In this document: positions 22,552 to 30,798 of the stretch, one piece after another
How the letters are laid out: each line of letters opens with the position of its first letter
How positions within the stretch are numbered: the first letter of the stretch is position 1
Origin: Acetobacteraceae bacterium
GTDB taxonomy: Bacteria > Pseudomonadota > Alphaproteobacteria > Acetobacterales > Acetobacteraceae
NCBI GenBank assembly: GCA_025055335.1
Contig: JANWXJ010000096.1
Span: 1 to 47,558 of the forward strand
Reading direction: 5' to 3'
Length of the DNA: 47,558 nucleotides
Position numbers and translations under genes: made by a program
Notes under the pieces: model-generated
The model's database searches: none
Told to the model about the DNA's origin: nothing
The model's input: only the letters and a program-made list of their open reading frames with translations

Positions 22552-23736
22552 TCACGCCGGCACGAGGCGGAGCGGCAGGCTCGCGAAGCCGCGCAGGGTG
22601 TTGTTCCGGCGCCGGCGCACCTCGCCCGCGATCTCGATCCGCGCCACCCGGCGAACGAGCGCCGACAGCACCGCCTCCCCCTCCATCCGCGCCAGCGCCA
22701 TGCCGACACAGGCGTGGATCCCGGCGCCGAACCCGACATGGCCTGCGGTCCTGCGCGTCACGTCGTAGTCGTCGGGGCGGTCCCAGCGGCGCGGATCGCG
22801 GTTGGCCGAGCCGAGGAACATCAGCACCTTCTCGCCCTCGCCGATCGTCTCGCCGCCGATCTCGACGGGGCGCGTCGTGGTGCGGAAGAAGGTCTGCACC
22901 GGGCTCTCGTGGCGCACCGCCTCCTCGAAGGCGTTGCGGATCAGCCGGGGTTCCGCCCGCACCCGCTCGTACTGGCCGGGGAAGCGGGCGAGGCAATGCA
23001 GCATCGCCCCGATCGCCGAGACCGTCGTGTCCACCCCCGCCGTCAGCACCGAGCGGACGACTTGCGGCGCCTCCTCGGCGGTGATCTCGCCGCGGTCTGC
23101 GGCGGCGTGGATCTCGGCGCCGAAGCCCTGTGGCGCCAGGTTCTCCCGCAGGGATTGCGCCTGCACCCAGGCGATCACCGGCGCGGCGTCCTGCACCGCC
23201 GCCTCGAAGTTGGCGTTGCGCGGGCCGAAGCTGTTGAACACCATGTTGCCGTAGGGCAGCAGGAAGCGCCGGTTCTCCCGCGGCATGCCCATGGCGTCCG
23301 GGAACACCGTCAGCGGATAGGCCTCGGCAAGCTCGGGCACGGCGTCGAACTCGCCGACCCCGACGAGCCGCTCGACCAGCTCCTCGGCCGCCGCCGCGAA
23401 AGGCTCCTTGAGCGCCGAGAGCGCGAGCGGCGAGAGCACGCGCGACTGCACGCCGCGCGTGCGGTCGTGCAGGGGAGGATCGGTCTCCAGCACCACCGAG
23501 GGCAGGCGCCAGGGCTTCGTGCGGGCGAAATCCTCGATCCCGACGCCGCGGGCGGAGGAGAAGGCCTGCCAGTCCTCGAGCACCGCCCGCACCTCGGCGT
23601 AGCGCGCCACCGCATGCACGCCGTAGCGCGAAAGCCGCACCACGGGCCCGAGGTCGCGCAGCACCGCATGCGCGGGGTGGGGGTTCTCCAGCACCTCGTC
23701 GCTGTAGGGATCGATGTCGCTTTCCGGGATGGCCAT
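22552..23736 (-). CDS. Cytochrome P450, CYP199-like (para-substituted benzoate monooxygenase type)
   Basis: A 394-residue soluble bacterial P450. The I-helix oxygen-binding motif is AGVDTT, the ExxR motif is EAVR, and the haem loop is FGAGIHACVG with the axial thiolate Cys343. Stretches such as FPDAMGMPRENRRFLLPYG, ESPVQTFFRTTTRPVEIGGE and VLMFLGSANRDPRRWDRPDD closely resemble the CYP199A group, which O-demethylates or hydroxylates para-substituted benzoates such as 4-methoxybenzoate. CYP199A enzymes use a dedicated 2Fe-2S ferredoxin; none follows here, so partners may come from the Rieske genes upstream or elsewhere. The ATG is 5 bp after the TctC stop. It is the last gene of the minus-strand catabolic operon. 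Confidence 0.9.
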   Translation of the reverse strand: MAIPESDIDPYSDEVLENPHPAHAVLRDLGPVVRLSRYGVHAVARYAEVRAVLEDWQAFSSARGVGIEDFARTKPWRLPSVVLETDPPLHDRTRGVQSRVLSPLALSALKEPFAAAAEELVERLVGVGEFDAVPELAEAYPLTVFPDAMGMPRENRRFLLPYGNMVFNSFGPRNANFEAAVQDAAPVIAWVQAQSLRENLAPQGFGAEIHAAADRGEITAEEAPQVVRSVLTAGVDTTVSAIGAMLHCLARFPGQYERVRAEPRLIRNAFEEAVRHESPVQTFFRTTTRPVEIGGETIGEGEKVLMFLGSANRDPRRWDRPDDYDVTRRTAGHVGFGAGIHACVGMALARMEGEAVLSALVRRVARIEIAGEVRRRRNNTLRGFASLPLRLVPA

Positions 23737-23741
23737 GGCGG

Positions 23742-24716
23742 TCAGGTGTCGAGGGTGATGCCGAGTTCGCGGATCAGCGGCACCCAATAGGCGCGGTCCT
23801 CGGCCATGGTGCGGTCGAACTCGGCCGGGCCCTGCGCCATCGGCTCCACCCCGATCTCGACGAGGCGGGCGCGGATCGCCGCATCGGCCAGCACCGCCGA
23901 AAGCACCTGCCACAGCCGCGCCACCGCCGGATCCGGCGTGGCCCGCGGGCACACGAGGCCCTGCCACGCGGGTGCCCGGTACTCCGGCAGGCCGGATTCG
24001 CGCAGCGTCGGCACATCCGGCAGCCAGTGCCAGCGCGAAAGCCCGGTGGTGGCGAGCGCCCGCACCCGTCCCGCCCGCAGCGCCCCGCCGGCCGAGGCCA
24101 CATCCACCATCATGCTCTCGAGCGTGCCGGAGATCAGGTCGTTCACCCCGGGCGCGCCGCCGCGATAGGGCACGTTCTCGAGCCGCACCCCGGCCTCGCG
24201 CTGCAGCCGCTCGAGCGCCAGGTGATGCGGCGATCCCACCCCCGGCGTGCCGCAGGCGATCCGCCCCGGGGCGGCGCGCGCGGCATCCAGGAACTCGCCG
24301 ATGGTGCGGAAGCGAGAGGCGGCGGGAACCGCGATCACCAGCGGGAAGTCGGCGAACATGCCGATGCCGCGGAAATCCTGCACCGGATCGTAGGCGAGGC
24401 TGCGGAACAGGCCGATCGCGTTCACCATGCTGCCGGAATCGCCGCTGAACACGGTGTGCCCGTCGGGGGCGGCGCGTGCGGCGGCGATGGCGCCGAGCGT
24501 GGCGGCCGCCCCCGGCCGGTTCTCCACCACCACGGGCTGGCCGAGCGGGCCTGCCATCTGCGCGGCGAACAGCCGCGCCAGCGCGTCCGATCCGCCGCCC
24601 GCCGGATAGGCGACGATCCAGCGCACCGGGCGGTCGGGGAAGGCGTGGGCAAGACGCGCGGCCAGCGCCGCCCCGATCAGCCCGAGCGCCGCGCGGCGCG
24701 CCAGCATCCCGTCCAT
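23742..24716 (-). CDS. TctC/Bug-family solute-binding protein, orphan
   Basis: A 324-residue exported binding protein with a signal peptide (LARRAALGLIGAALAARLAHA). Family signatures are FPDRPVRWIVAYPAGGGSDA, VVENRPGAAATLGAI, GTPGVGSPHHLALERL, ENVPYRGGAPGVNDLISG and PTLRESGLPEYRAPAWQGL. GGAGGGAGCC precedes the ATG. No membrane components are present. It sits between the broken LuxR-type regulator and the P450, so the P450 substrate or a related acid is a plausible ligand. Confidence 0.93.
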   Translation of the reverse strand: MDGMLARRAALGLIGAALAARLAHAFPDRPVRWIVAYPAGGGSDALARLFAAQMAGPLGQPVVVENRPGAAATLGAIAAARAAPDGHTVFSGDSGSMVNAIGLFRSLAYDPVQDFRGIGMFADFPLVIAVPAASRFRTIGEFLDAARAAPGRIACGTPGVGSPHHLALERLQREAGVRLENVPYRGGAPGVNDLISGTLESMMVDVASAGGALRAGRVRALATTGLSRWHWLPDVPTLRESGLPEYRAPAWQGLVCPRATPDPAVARLWQVLSAVLADAAIRARLVEIGVEPMAQGPAEFDRTMAEDRAYWVPLIRELGITLDT

Positions 24717-24835: not shown

Positions 24836-25573
24836 TCAGCCCGGCCCGAACACGCGCCGGAACAGCTCCGCCTGCGAGGAGATGCCGAGCCGCGCATAGG
24901 CCCGCCGCCGCAGCGTGAGCACCGTGTTGCGCGACACCCCGAGCGACAGGGCGATCCCCTCCGAGGAGAGGCCGGAGAGGATCCCCCGGCACACCTCCCG
25001 TTCCCGCCGTGTGAGGGGGGAGAGCATGTCCGCCTCCCGCCGGGCGGAGGCGCGGAGCGCCCTGTCGCGCGACAGGGCGGCGCCGATCGCCGGCAGCGCC
25101 TCCACGAGGCGCCGGCGCGCCTCTCCCGGGAAGCCGCCCGATCCCTCCAGCCGGTGGAAATTGGCATAGAGGATCCAGCCGTCCGGGGCGCGCAGGCACA
25201 GCGCGAGCTTGTCCACGATGCCCGAGGCGGCGAAGAAGCGACGGTAGTAGTCGGCCGCATAGGCGGAGGCGTCGAGCCGCGCGCACACCTCACGCGCCGC
25301 CGGGCCGGCGCGGCGCAGCCTTGGCAGGTTGGGATCGCGGCGGAACCAGCCGCGCTCGGCCTAGTCGGCGGCCAGCACGGCGGCGAGCCGCCGGTCGATC
25401 CGGCCGAGTGTGGCGAAGGCGCGCGCACCCTCGGCCTCGGACAGCCCGAACAGGCAGATGTGGTCCACCCCGAAACCCGCCGAGAGGGATTCCGCGAGGC
25501 GGTCGCAGAAATCGGGCGCGCCGATGCCGCCGATCAGAGTCGCGATCCAGGGCTGTTCCGCCCCCCCGGACAT
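24836..25573 (-). pseudogene. LuxR-type transcriptional regulator interrupted by an in-frame TAG
   Basis: One continuous reading frame runs from ATG 25573 to the stop at 24836 (245 codons), broken only by a TAG codon at 25361-25363. Before the TAG is a 70-residue N-terminal sensor part (PWIATLIGGIGAPDFCDRLA). After it, AERGWFRRDPNLPRLRRAGP leads into DYYRRFFAASGI and a C-terminal LuxR helix-turn-helix (LSPLTRREREVCRGILSG, LGVSRNTVLTLRRRAYARLG). The whole has the usual size for solitary HTH-LuxR regulators of about 250 residues. A one-base change from a sense codon such as TAC or CAG would create the stop. A GTG at 25288 could reinitiate and give a 150-residue protein that keeps the DNA-binding domain. 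It lies in the catabolic operon between ALDH and TctC. Confidence 0.8.
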
Positions 25574-25666: not shown

Positions 25667-27133
25667 TCACCCCGCCCAGGGGATCGGCGTGCCGGAAAGG
25701 TCCCAGTAGAGCGATTTCTGTCGCAGATAGCCGCGCAGCCCGAGGCGCCCCTTCTCCAGCCCCGGCCCCGAGGCCTTCCACCCTCCGAAGGGGGTAGAGA
25801 TCGAGAACTGCTTGTAGGTGTTGATCCACACCGTGCCGGCCTCGAGCGCCCGCGCCACGCGCCAGATGCGGCGGTAGTCGGCCGACCAGATGCCGGCGGC
25901 GAGGCCGTAGGCGCTGTCGTTCGCCTGGGCGATCAGGTCGGCCTCGTCGGCGAAGGGCAGCACGACGAGGACGGGGCCGAACACCTCCTCCTGGCAGATG
26001 CGGGCGCTGTTCGGCAGGCCGGAGAGGATGGTGGGCAGGTAATAGGCGCCGCGGGAGAAGGCCTCGCCCTCCGGCGCCCGGCCGCCGGCGAGCAGCGTCG
26101 CGCCATCGGCCAGCGCCTGTTCGACCTGCGCCGCGACCGAATCGCGATGCGCGTGGCGGATCAGCGGCGCCACCTGGGTGGCCGGATCCTCGGGGTGGCC
26201 GACGCGCAGGGCCCTGGTGCGCTCGACCAGCCGGGCCAGGAAGGGTTCGCGGATCGCCTCCTGCACGAACAGCCGCGATCCGGCGATGCAGGACTGGCCG
26301 GTGGAGGAGAAGATGCCGAACAGCACCCCGGCGATCGCCTGCTCCATGTCGGCATCGGCGAACACGATCGTCGGGGACTTCCCGCCGAGCTCGAGGCTGA
26401 CGGGCATCAGCTTCTCCGCCGCCAGCCGGGCGATGGCCCGCCCCGTCGCGGTGCCGCCGGTGAAGGAGATCTTCTGCACGAGCGGATGGCGCACCAGCAC
26501 ATCGCCGACTTCCGCCCCCGCGCCCGGCAGGACGGACAGCAGCCCCTCCGGCAGCCCCGCCTTCTCGGCCACGCGCGCGAGCCTGAGGCCGACCAGGGGC
26601 GACCAGCCGGAGGGCTTCACCACCACCGCATTCCCGGCGGCCAGGGCCGGCGCCACCTTCTGCGCATCCGAGGCGATGGGCGAGTTCCAGGGCGTGATGG
26701 CCCCGACCACCCCCATCGGCTCCCACAGCGACATCGTCGCATAAGGCCCGCGCGGGGCGGTGATCTCCTCCTCGTGCGTCTCGGCGGCGGCGGCGAAGAA
26801 GCGGAAGGTGCCGGCGGCGGAGGCGACGAGGGCGCGCGTCTCGGCCAGGGTCTTGCCGGTGTCCCGCGTCTGGGTGCGGGCGATGTCCTCCGCCTCGGCC
26901 TCGAGCCCGTCGGCGATCCTGAGAAGCACGCGCGCCCGGTCGCGCGGCAGCGCCGCCCCCCAGCCGGACTCCCGCTGCGCCCTGGCGGCGCGCTCGATCG
27001 CCTCCTCGGCATCGGCGGCCGAGGCGGCCGCCACCACGGCATTGAGGGATCCGTCGTGCGGGAAGCGGGATTCGATCGGCGCGCCGCGCCCCTCCACCCA
27101 ACGCCCGGCAAGGAAGATCGGCAGCGGGCTCAT
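25667..27133 (-). CDS. NAD(P)-dependent aldehyde dehydrogenase
   Basis: A 488-residue aldehyde dehydrogenase of standard length. It has PWNSPIASDAQKVAPALAAG and KPSGWSPL near the cofactor pocket, the nucleotide-loop region SFTGGTATGRAIA, the general base in SLELGGKSP, and the catalytic Cys282 in STGQSCIAGSR. The C-terminal EEVFGPVLVV and NTYKQFSISTPFGGWKASG are typical. It would oxidise an aromatic or ring-opened aldehyde to its acid. The ATG overlaps the ferredoxin-reductase stop by four bases (ATGA). Confidence 0.93.
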   Translation of the reverse strand: MSPLPIFLAGRWVEGRGAPIESRFPHDGSLNAVVAAASAADAEEAIERAARAQRESGWGAALPRDRARVLLRIADGLEAEAEDIARTQTRDTGKTLAETRALVASAAGTFRFFAAAAETHEEEITAPRGPYATMSLWEPMGVVGAITPWNSPIASDAQKVAPALAAGNAVVVKPSGWSPLVGLRLARVAEKAGLPEGLLSVLPGAGAEVGDVLVRHPLVQKISFTGGTATGRAIARLAAEKLMPVSLELGGKSPTIVFADADMEQAIAGVLFGIFSSTGQSCIAGSRLFVQEAIREPFLARLVERTRALRVGHPEDPATQVAPLIRHAHRDSVAAQVEQALADGATLLAGGRAPEGEAFSRGAYYLPTILSGLPNSARICQEEVFGPVLVVLPFADEADLIAQANDSAYGLAAGIWSADYRRIWRVARALEAGTVWINTYKQFSISTPFGGWKASGPGLEKGRLGLRGYLRQKSLYWDLSGTPIPWAG

Positions 27134-28341: not shown

Positions 28342-29142
28342 TCAGGCCGCCGCCTCGCCCTCGGCGTGGCCGAGCGCGCGGGAGATCTCGGCGGCCGCGC
28401 GCTTCACCTCGGCCACGAGAGGATCCGTCACCTTGGCACCGCCGAACAGGGTCGCGTTGATGCTGGCGACGATGCGGCCCGTGGCGTCGCGCACCGGCGC
28501 GGCCACCGCCGAGACGCCGCTTTCGAAATAGCCTTCGCTGACGCCGGCGCCGCGGGCGCGGTCCTCGGCGATCCTCGCCTTCAGCGCGGCGAGCGTCGTC
28601 GGCGTCTGCGGCGAGAAGGCGCGCAGCGGCTCGGCGGGGAAGAGTGCGCGAAGCTCCGCGTCGCTCAGGTCCATCAGCAGCATGCGCCCGAGCACCGAGG
28701 CGTGCGTCGGCACCCGCGTGCCGACGGAGAAGGAGCCGGTGAGTGCGCCCTTGCCCGGGGCGCGCAGCACCACCACCGCCTCCGCCCCGTCGCGCACGGC
28801 GAGGTGGCAGGAATGTCCGGTGCGGTCGCGCAGCCCATCGAGCGGGGCGCGCCCGGCCACCGTCACGTCGCCCGAGGCGAGCCAGGCGAAGCCGAGCCGC
28901 GTGACGCCGGCGGCAAGGCGGAAGGCGTTGCCGTGCTCGGTCCGCCCGATCAGCCCGTAGGCCTCGAGCGTCTGCAGCAGGCGGAACACGGTCGAGCGCG
29001 GGATGCCGAGGGCGCGGGCCATGTCGGAGGGCGCGACCGCCTCGCGCGAGGCGGCGAGCAGCTCCAGCACCTCGATCCCGCGCGCGAGCGCAGGCACGAT
29101 GTAGCGCCCCTGGCGCGGATCGTGCGTGCGCCCGTCAGGCAT
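28342..29142 (-). CDS. IclR-family transcriptional regulator
   Basis: A 266-residue regulator with an N-terminal winged helix (ALARGIEVLELLAASREAVA, then DMARALGIPRSTVFRLLQTL as the HTH near residues 39-58). The C-terminal effector-binding IclR domain contains GTRVPTHASVLGRMLLMDLS and SINATLFGG. IclR proteins often control aromatic-acid catabolism genes beside them. It lies inside the Rieske operon, overlaps the oxygenase gene by 8 bp, and ends 12 bp before the reductase gene. A candidate target is the inverted repeat upstream of the Rieske ferredoxin gene (30826-30860). Confidence 0.92.
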   Translation of the reverse strand: MPDGRTHDPRQGRYIVPALARGIEVLELLAASREAVAPSDMARALGIPRSTVFRLLQTLEAYGLIGRTEHGNAFRLAAGVTRLGFAWLASGDVTVAGRAPLDGLRDRTGHSCHLAVRDGAEAVVVLRAPGKGALTGSFSVGTRVPTHASVLGRMLLMDLSDAELRALFPAEPLRAFSPQTPTTLAALKARIAEDRARGAGVSEGYFESGVSAVAAPVRDATGRIVASINATLFGGAKVTDPLVAEVKRAAAEISRALGHAEGEAAA

Positions 29143-30148
29143 GCGCCACCTGGCGGGCGGCTTCCTGCTCGAGGATGCGGCGCACGCGGCTCATGCCCAC
29201 ATCGTGCTGGTAGAGATACTCCTGCTCGCGGGCGCGAGGCGCCATGTCCTCGAGCACGACGCGGTCCTGCTCCAGCACCTGCCAGTGCAGGCCCTCGAGC
29301 CTGGTGCGGTAGAGGAAGCGCCACACGTGGCGCTGCCAGCCCTGCACCTTGCGGATGCGCCAGAAGAACACGCGGCAGGAGGTCTCCGTCACCGGGGTGA
29401 CGAAGCCGACGATGGTGAAGGGCCCGCCCGGGCCGAACTTCCTGCGGTAGGGGATGGACAGGCGGAGCCAGATGGCGCCCGAGTTGCCGAACTCCACCCA
29501 GTCGAAGTTCACGCCCATCTGGCCGGTCTTCTCGAACACGAGGCCGGTTTGCGTCTTGCGGGTGCGGAACTCGGCCTGCTTGTCGCCTTCCGCCATGGAG
29601 TGCGACTGCGCGTGCAGATAGGCCCCGTGCATCGGGTCCATCACGTTGTCCACCGCGTAGCGCCAGTTGCACTTCCAGTGCGCGGTGCAGAGCATCCGGC
29701 TGTAGGCGTCGGAGGTCATCTCCTCCGGCAGGTCGAGCGGCGGCGGCGGCTCGTCGGCGATCGGGAAGTAGAGGAAGATCGCGCCCTCTATCTCCTTCGC
29801 GGCATAGGCCGGGAGCGCCTTCTGCCCCTCGAGCGGGCAGCCCTGCACCGCCGGCACCGACGCCACGACGCCGTCGCCCCGCACCTCTATGCCGTGGTAC
29901 CAGCAGGCCACACGGTCGCCGAGGTTCCACCCGAGCGAGAGCCGCGCGCCGCGGTGGGGGCAGCGGTCCTCGATGGCGTGCACGGCGCCGTCGGCGTCGC
30001 GCCAGATGGCGATGTTGCGCGACAGGCGGGTGATGCCGACCGGCGTGCCCTGCACCGCCCAGGAGGGCAGCACCGGATACCACAGGCCGAGCAGCCCCTG
30101 GTTCAGGCGGGCTTCCGCCTCGGGGCTCAGGCGCTTGATCTCGTTCAT
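29135..30148 (-). CDS. Rieske non-haem iron oxygenase, alpha subunit
   Basis: A 337-residue oxygenase. The Rieske 2Fe-2S site is C63-P-H65 and C82-WY-H85. The mononuclear Fe(II) site is Asp167 (bridging), His174 and His179 in DPMHGAYLHAQSH, with a later aspartate near VLEQDRVVLE as the probable third ligand. The size matches the homomeric alpha-3 group (vanillate demethylase, phenoxybenzoate and similar oxygenases), and no beta-subunit gene is nearby. With the Rieske ferredoxin and FAD reductase it makes a complete three-component system. It hydroxylates or demethylates an aromatic acid; which one is unknown. AGGAGG precedes the ATG. Confidence 0.93.
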   Translation of the reverse strand: MNEIKRLSPEAEARLNQGLLGLWYPVLPSWAVQGTPVGITRLSRNIAIWRDADGAVHAIEDRCPHRGARLSLGWNLGDRVACWYHGIEVRGDGVVASVPAVQGCPLEGQKALPAYAAKEIEGAIFLYFPIADEPPPPLDLPEEMTSDAYSRMLCTAHWKCNWRYAVDNVMDPMHGAYLHAQSHSMAEGDKQAEFRTRKTQTGLVFEKTGQMGVNFDWVEFGNSGAIWLRLSIPYRRKFGPGGPFTIVGFVTPVTETSCRVFFWRIRKVQGWQRHVWRFLYRTRLEGLHWQVLEQDRVVLEDMAPRAREQEYLYQHDVGMSRVRRILEQEAARQVAHA

Positions 30149-30158
30149 CGCCTCCTCC

Positions 30159-30506
30159 TCACCAGCCGAGCCGGGCGATTTCCGCGGTGAAGCTTGCCTC
30201 CGTCCAGGGCTCGCCGGACGGGGCGCGGGAGCCGCGGGCGTTCAGCGCGGCGACGAGGTCGGGCAGCTCCTCCGCACCGGCCTCGAAGCAGGCGATGAGG
30301 CTGTCCGCCAGCGCGTTCTCGTATTCCGTCGGCGGTGCGGGGCGCGTCTGCCACACGAGGTTCACCACCTGGTCCGGGCGTTCGAGCGCGCCCTTGCCGG
30401 CGGCGGAGCCCGGCTCCGGGCGCCGCCAGGGCTTCAGCTGCGGGTTGTGGTCCGCCGCCCAGGCCGGGCTGTCCGAGTCATGCACGGACGAGGATGTTTC
30501 CGCCAT
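30159..30506 (-). CDS. Small recombinase-like helix-turn-helix protein
   Basis: A 115-residue protein. The C-terminal half (ENALADSLIACFEAGAEELP, DLVAALNARG, EPWTEASFTAEIARLG) looks like the short DNA-binding-type domain of serine recombinases, without any catalytic part. I recall such small proteins beside Rieske oxygenases, annotated as 'recombinase-like helix-turn-helix domain-containing'. The N-terminal half is low complexity but includes NPQLKPWRRP, a stretch also seen in these relatives. The ATG at 30506 lies in the end of the Rieske ferredoxin gene with AGGTGA six bases before it; a GTG at 30485 is an alternative. The role is unknown. Confidence 0.75.
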   Translation of the reverse strand: MAETSSSVHDSDSPAWAADHNPQLKPWRRPEPGSAAGKGALERPDQVVNLVWQTRPAPPTEYENALADSLIACFEAGAEELPDLVAALNARGSRAPSGEPWTEASFTAEIARLGW

Positions 30507-30798
30507 CGATCTTCACCTCGTAGGTCTTGAGGTCGCGCTGCCCGATCTCCCGCAGGCATTTTCCCGTCGGGATGTGGAAGAGCGCCTCGTGCAGCGGGCA
30601 TTCCACCGTCTCGCCGTCCACGAACCCCTCGGAGAGCAGGGCGAAGGCATGCGGGCAGACGTCCTCGATCGCGTGGACGGCGCCCGACACCCGGTACAGC
30701 CCGATCCGCTGGCCGCCGAGCGTGACGGAAAGGGGCTGGTCCTCCGTGAGCGCCTCGTCGCGGGCGACGACGTGCCATGTGCCTTCGGTGTCGGTCAT
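30478..30798 (-). CDS. Rieske 2Fe-2S ferredoxin (oxygenase electron carrier)
   Basis: A 106-residue soluble Rieske protein with cluster ligands C48-P-H50 and C67-PL-H70, the NirD/BphF-like type. It carries electrons from the FAD reductase at 27130-28329 to the oxygenase at 29135-30148. It is the first gene of the minus-strand catabolic operon and overlaps the small recombinase-like gene by 29 bp. The stretch DVCPHAFALLSEGFVDGE is typical of these ferredoxins. The upstream 127-bp gap carries an inverted repeat and probably the operon promoter. Confidence 0.92.
   Translation of the reverse strand: MTDTEGTWHVVARDEALTEDQPLSVTLGGQRIGLYRVSGAVHAIEDVCPHAFALLSEGFVDGETVECPLHEALFHIPTGKCLREIGQRDLKTYEVKIDGGNILVRA

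Follow-up and report, generated by a model that had tools for sequence, protein, structure and literature searches.

A LuxR-type regulator gene interrupted by one in-frame TAG codon, and probably inactivated by it, in an Acetobacteraceae genome bin

The window analysed here, the whole 47,558-nucleotide stretch of contig JANWXJ010000096.1 from an Acetobacteraceae bacterium, contains on its minus strand a LuxR-type regulator gene that is interrupted by a single in-frame TAG. We consider it probable that a single nonsense substitution, in the region encoding the sensor domain, has cost this accessory LuxR-type solo gene its function.

The interrupted gene

From 25573 down to 24836 the minus strand carries a frame of 245 codons, beginning with ATG and closed by a TGA stop, and the TAG at codon 71 (25363–25361) is its sole break. 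The features of the gene are:

24836..25573, minus strand: LuxR-type regulator gene of 245 codons, interrupted once (frame, profile, model and fold matches)
25361..25363, minus strand: in-frame TAG, codon 71, in sensor-domain helix 61–72 (frame, model and alignment)
25364..25573, minus strand: 70-aa N-terminal fragment with the beginning of the sensor domain (Shine-Dalgarno -12.0 kcal/mol; profile E 6.3e-8)
24857..25018, minus strand: GerE helix-turn-helix domain, the only GerE found in the genome bin

The sequence-only reading, which named no strand, had described a LuxR-type regulator split by one TAG with frame and similarity running on past it, and both statements were borne out. The coding score was 0.31 per codon before as well as after the TAG, the third-position GC of the two sides was 0.90 and 0.93, and a strong, purine-rich Shine-Dalgarno sequence (-12.0 kcal/mol against the 16S tail) stands before the ATG at 25573. 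Against a family profile of 60 relatives, from which the window protein was left out and for which E-values refer to a search space of one sequence, the 70-aa N-terminal piece matched positions 12–58 (E 6.3e-8) and the 174-aa C-terminal piece matched positions 73–253 (E 3.7e-44), the two matches being colinear and free of overlap. Because both pieces matched one family profile in order and the coding signal was equal on the two sides, we regard the split gene as confirmed, and on the strength of these sequence matches chance would seem to be no serious explanation of it. The frame has no second lesion, and the TAG is a premature stop relative to intact homologues with the same frame on both sides, as in a nonsense pseudogene. 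As given, the DNA encodes two pieces parted by the TAG and no single chain of sensor and GerE domains; only the read-through chain has that build.

Among the genomes compared, this bin is the only one of its genus, and comparisons were made at the level of the family. Its fragmentation into 256 contigs, at 84% completeness, makes the bin most likely a metagenome assembly. The best family-level matches were about 33–37% identical to the LuxR protein, and all of the relatives' matches listed by these searches were without an internal stop. It had been said earlier that relatives encoding two separate proteins at this place would speak against a split gene; every relative compared proved to be one unbroken chain, which rules out a pair of separate proteins. 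Plasmid copies were distant matches only (34–47% identity), and the 84%-complete bin yielded no further GerE domain.

Protein family and predicted fold

The GerE domain (PF00196, residues 186–239) scored 41.9 bits against a curated cut-off of 23.5, and the ligand-binding domain covers about residues 4–175 of the intact protein. By sequence and model, the intact protein would be a LuxR regulator of the VqsR/LasR type, composed of a ligand-binding domain and a GerE DNA-binding domain. For the read-through chain, an AlphaFold model (mean pLDDT 85, built on an alignment of 36) showed the two-domain build of LuxR proteins. The sensor part of the model has the alpha-beta-alpha fold typical of LuxR ligand-binding domains, and fold matches to the model included VqsR, LasR and RhlR. 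VqsR of Pseudomonas aeruginosa (PDB 5xhx) matched over 161 residues with a Z of 14.9 and an rmsd of 3.4 and outscored the other solved ligand-binding domains in sequence comparison (profile E 2.7e-28), but its identity to the window protein is low (14%), and the window gene is interrupted. The ligand-binding domain of LasR likewise matched the model with a Z of 14.9.

The two-domain build, the fold and a DP motif after the tyrosine helix are common to the window protein and to autoinducer receptors of the LasR/TraR/RhlR/SdiA type. Unlike those receptors, the window protein had no match to the Pfam autoinducer-binding domain at E-values up to 10, and none was found in 36 family members. With no match to this model in the gene or in its relatives, the sensing of acyl-homoserine lactones cannot be claimed for the protein. 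A search of the bin for an autoinducer synthase gave no match, and a control search was likewise without matches anywhere, which leaves the negative result uninformative.

In the family alignment the column of the stop is itself variable among relatives. In the column next to it, each of the 59 relatives that are not gapped there has tyrosine and the window protein has alanine, and an alignment shift of one residue would place the TAG on the invariant tyrosine column.

Gene neighbourhood

The LuxR gene belongs to a minus-strand run that encodes a Rieske ferredoxin, an HTH_62 protein, a Rieske oxygenase, an IclR regulator, a ferredoxin reductase, an aldehyde dehydrogenase, the LuxR regulator, a TctC protein and a P450. 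Converging on this run, the plus strand encodes an ABC transporter set, a short-chain dehydrogenase, a hydrolase, a glyoxalase-family protein, a TPP enzyme and a second TctC. The neighbours that bear on the LuxR gene are:

30478–30798, minus strand: Rieske ferredoxin
28342..29142, minus strand: IclR-type regulator, intact, in the same gene run (PF09339 and PF01614; PcaR/PcaU/PobR-like)
25667..27133, minus strand: aldehyde dehydrogenase, intact, upstream neighbour (PF00171; start by coding score)
23742..24716, minus strand: TctC-type substrate-binding protein, intact, downstream neighbour (PF03401)
22552..23736, minus strand: cytochrome P450, intact, downstream neighbour (PF00067)

Judged by its gene families, the region looks like one of the aromatic-catabolism type. 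We examined the surroundings of P450, Rieske and LuxR matches in related genomes, 35 neighbourhoods in all, and in none of them did a LuxR gene of the window family stand beside TctC, P450 or Rieske genes. Rieske and HTH_62 genes of the related genomes travel with TPP, SDR, hydrolase, IclR or ABC genes, and relatives of the P450 in the family are up to 74% identical to it. With no LuxR gene of this family at the matching place in related genomes, the gene looks accessory in the lineage, and as an accessory gene it could be lost tolerably. Its role as main regulator of the operon is putative, and so is the constant expression of the operon that had been suggested earlier; the same run holds the intact IclR-type regulator. 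A promoter and terminator scan around the LuxR gene found none; if the genes are co-transcribed, polarity from the early stop could lower the expression of the TctC and P450 genes.

Three smaller observations were made on these genes. The TctC and P450 genes (22552-24716, minus strand) recur as an adjacent pair in two related genomes, where each is about 72% identical to its counterpart in the window and no LuxR gene accompanies them, and the keeping of this pair suggests that the binding protein and the P450 are functionally linked. Between the Rieske ferredoxin and the Rieske oxygenase (29135-30798, minus strand) a small HTH_62 ('recombinase-like') protein is encoded. Many related genomes keep HTH_62 paired with the oxygenase, so that in this setting HTH_62 may be part of the oxygenase system and have no role in recombination. 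At one locus (L195, 26-1983) about 210 bp separate a relative of the LuxR gene (35% identity) from a divergently oriented gene that is weakly similar (24%) to the Rieske oxygenase of the window.

Stop codon usage, internal starts and alternative explanations

A sample of about 300 kb of the bin was surveyed for stop usage and split frames; one of its contigs (L235) has no G or C and so reads as N or as withheld sequence. TAG closed 42 of the 254 gene ends in this sample (~17%), and four other genes in the window end in it. Among the 30 tRNA loci read, from 33 tRNA genes found in the 84%-complete bin, none had a CUA anticodon. Neither a CUA tRNA nor a TAG unused as a stop was thus seen, and recoding of TAG was rejected on these grounds.

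Two internal start codons in the frame are relevant to what might be made downstream of the TAG:

24836..25288, minus strand: open frame from GTG 25288, residue 96 (-5.0 kcal/mol; fold position)
24836..25027, minus strand: open frame from ATG 25027, residue 183, GerE domain only, 63 aa (GGGAGG; -10.3 kcal/mol)

The main rival to a nonsense mutation is an error of assembly, or a consensus base of the bin that stems from a minority or a mixture of strains, the regulator of the organism itself being intact. Such an origin would suit a fragmented bin that is most likely a metagenome assembly, and a frame in which nothing else is damaged. Split frames, however, are rare in the ~300-kb sample apart from one prophage contig (they comprise the LuxR gene, four stops on that contig and two unclear cases), which argues that this assembly does not often make spurious stops, and we consider an error of this kind possible but rather unlikely. 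The sequence-only reading had also allowed that the TAG might be read through. Readthrough at a useful rate, by way of regulation or recoding and with low levels of the full-length regulator, would agree with the full maintenance of the frame past the stop and with the conserved in-frame stops that have been reported in bacterial genes (PMC7918605), but it found no positive support: TAG is a normal terminator here, no amber-reading tRNA was among the loci read, and the stop is common to no relative compared. We regard readthrough as highly unlikely.

The third suggestion made earlier, reinitiation at GTG 25288 to give a DNA-binding domain without its sensor, was not supported. The site is average, its Shine-Dalgarno value of -5.0 kcal/mol being matched by 38% of the internal start codons in the window, and the codon lies in the middle of the sensor domain and not at its end, the product (residues 96–245) keeping half of the sensor fold in the model. 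Start codons are common in this zone among the relatives, with a good ribosome-binding match in 6 of 60 only. For a protein that only binds DNA, ATG 25027 is the better internal start, with GGGAGG at five-base spacing (-10.3 kcal/mol) just before an intact GerE domain, and free-standing GerE-domain proteins exist (GerE itself, PDB 1fse). Internal initiation, likelier there than at the GTG, would yield a ligand-independent regulator or a competitor, but roughly 5% of the internal start codons reach the score of ATG 25027 and a comparable start occurs in this zone in only 4 of the 60 relatives, so that the site is not conserved and chance is likely the reason for it. We therefore consider internal initiation distinctly unlikely. 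A search of the literature on reinitiation turned up only eukaryotic expression work with little bearing here (PMC4648390). It would be highly improbable that the nonsense codon has been kept because it yields, from ATG 25027, a DNA-binding-only regulator that acts on the neighbouring aromatic-catabolism-type genes without ligand.

Loss by nonsense mutation

If the regulator was lost by a single nonsense substitution, as we think probable, translation would run from ATG 25573 to the TAG and end there, the product would be a 70-aa fragment with neither a complete ligand pocket nor a DNA-binding domain, and the cell would be left without a working copy of the regulator, no other GerE protein having been found in the bin. 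With no second lesion in the rest of the frame, the mutation looks recent. Nonsense outcomes make up 48 of the 2196 possible single changes, and one more would be expected at ~6% neutral divergence; on these grounds the loss, if real, should be recent, or else the gene is intact in the population. The undecayed frame past the stop also fits the latter, which counts against the explanation by nonsense mutation. We infer that the base is real, the gene inactive and the change recent, and the earlier suggestion of a newly dead regulator is probably right, given the lack of a second lesion and the single proteins of the relatives.

In-frame stops are widespread in bacterial genes and are not always inactivating, some persisting under purifying selection (PMC7918605). 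The cases in that study, from many bacterial genomes, likewise involve frames that are intact but for one nonsense codon; they differ from ours in that shared stops and dN/dS were testable there, whereas the window gene is one sequence only. Most likely the present case is an ordinary event, in which an accessory VqsR-like LuxR gene has recently acquired one nonsense mutation. If real, it adds one more LuxR solo lost by point mutation where such a regulator is carried as an accessory gene. In annotation, the two fragments are best entered as one interrupted gene and not as two proteins, and the intact GerE domain alone gives no ground for crediting the genome with a quorum-sensing function.

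A prophage-like contig with several stops

The clearest other split frames in the ~300-kb sample are on a prophage-like contig of the same genome (L234), which has four in-frame stops at 189, 7053, 7593 and 8422 (TGA, TAA, TAG and TAG, respectively). Its portal-protein frame has a TAA break between Pfam portal positions 165 and 173 and a TAG near the end. Capsid and DNA-methylase genes lie near this split frame, and the contig is probably a decaying prophage.
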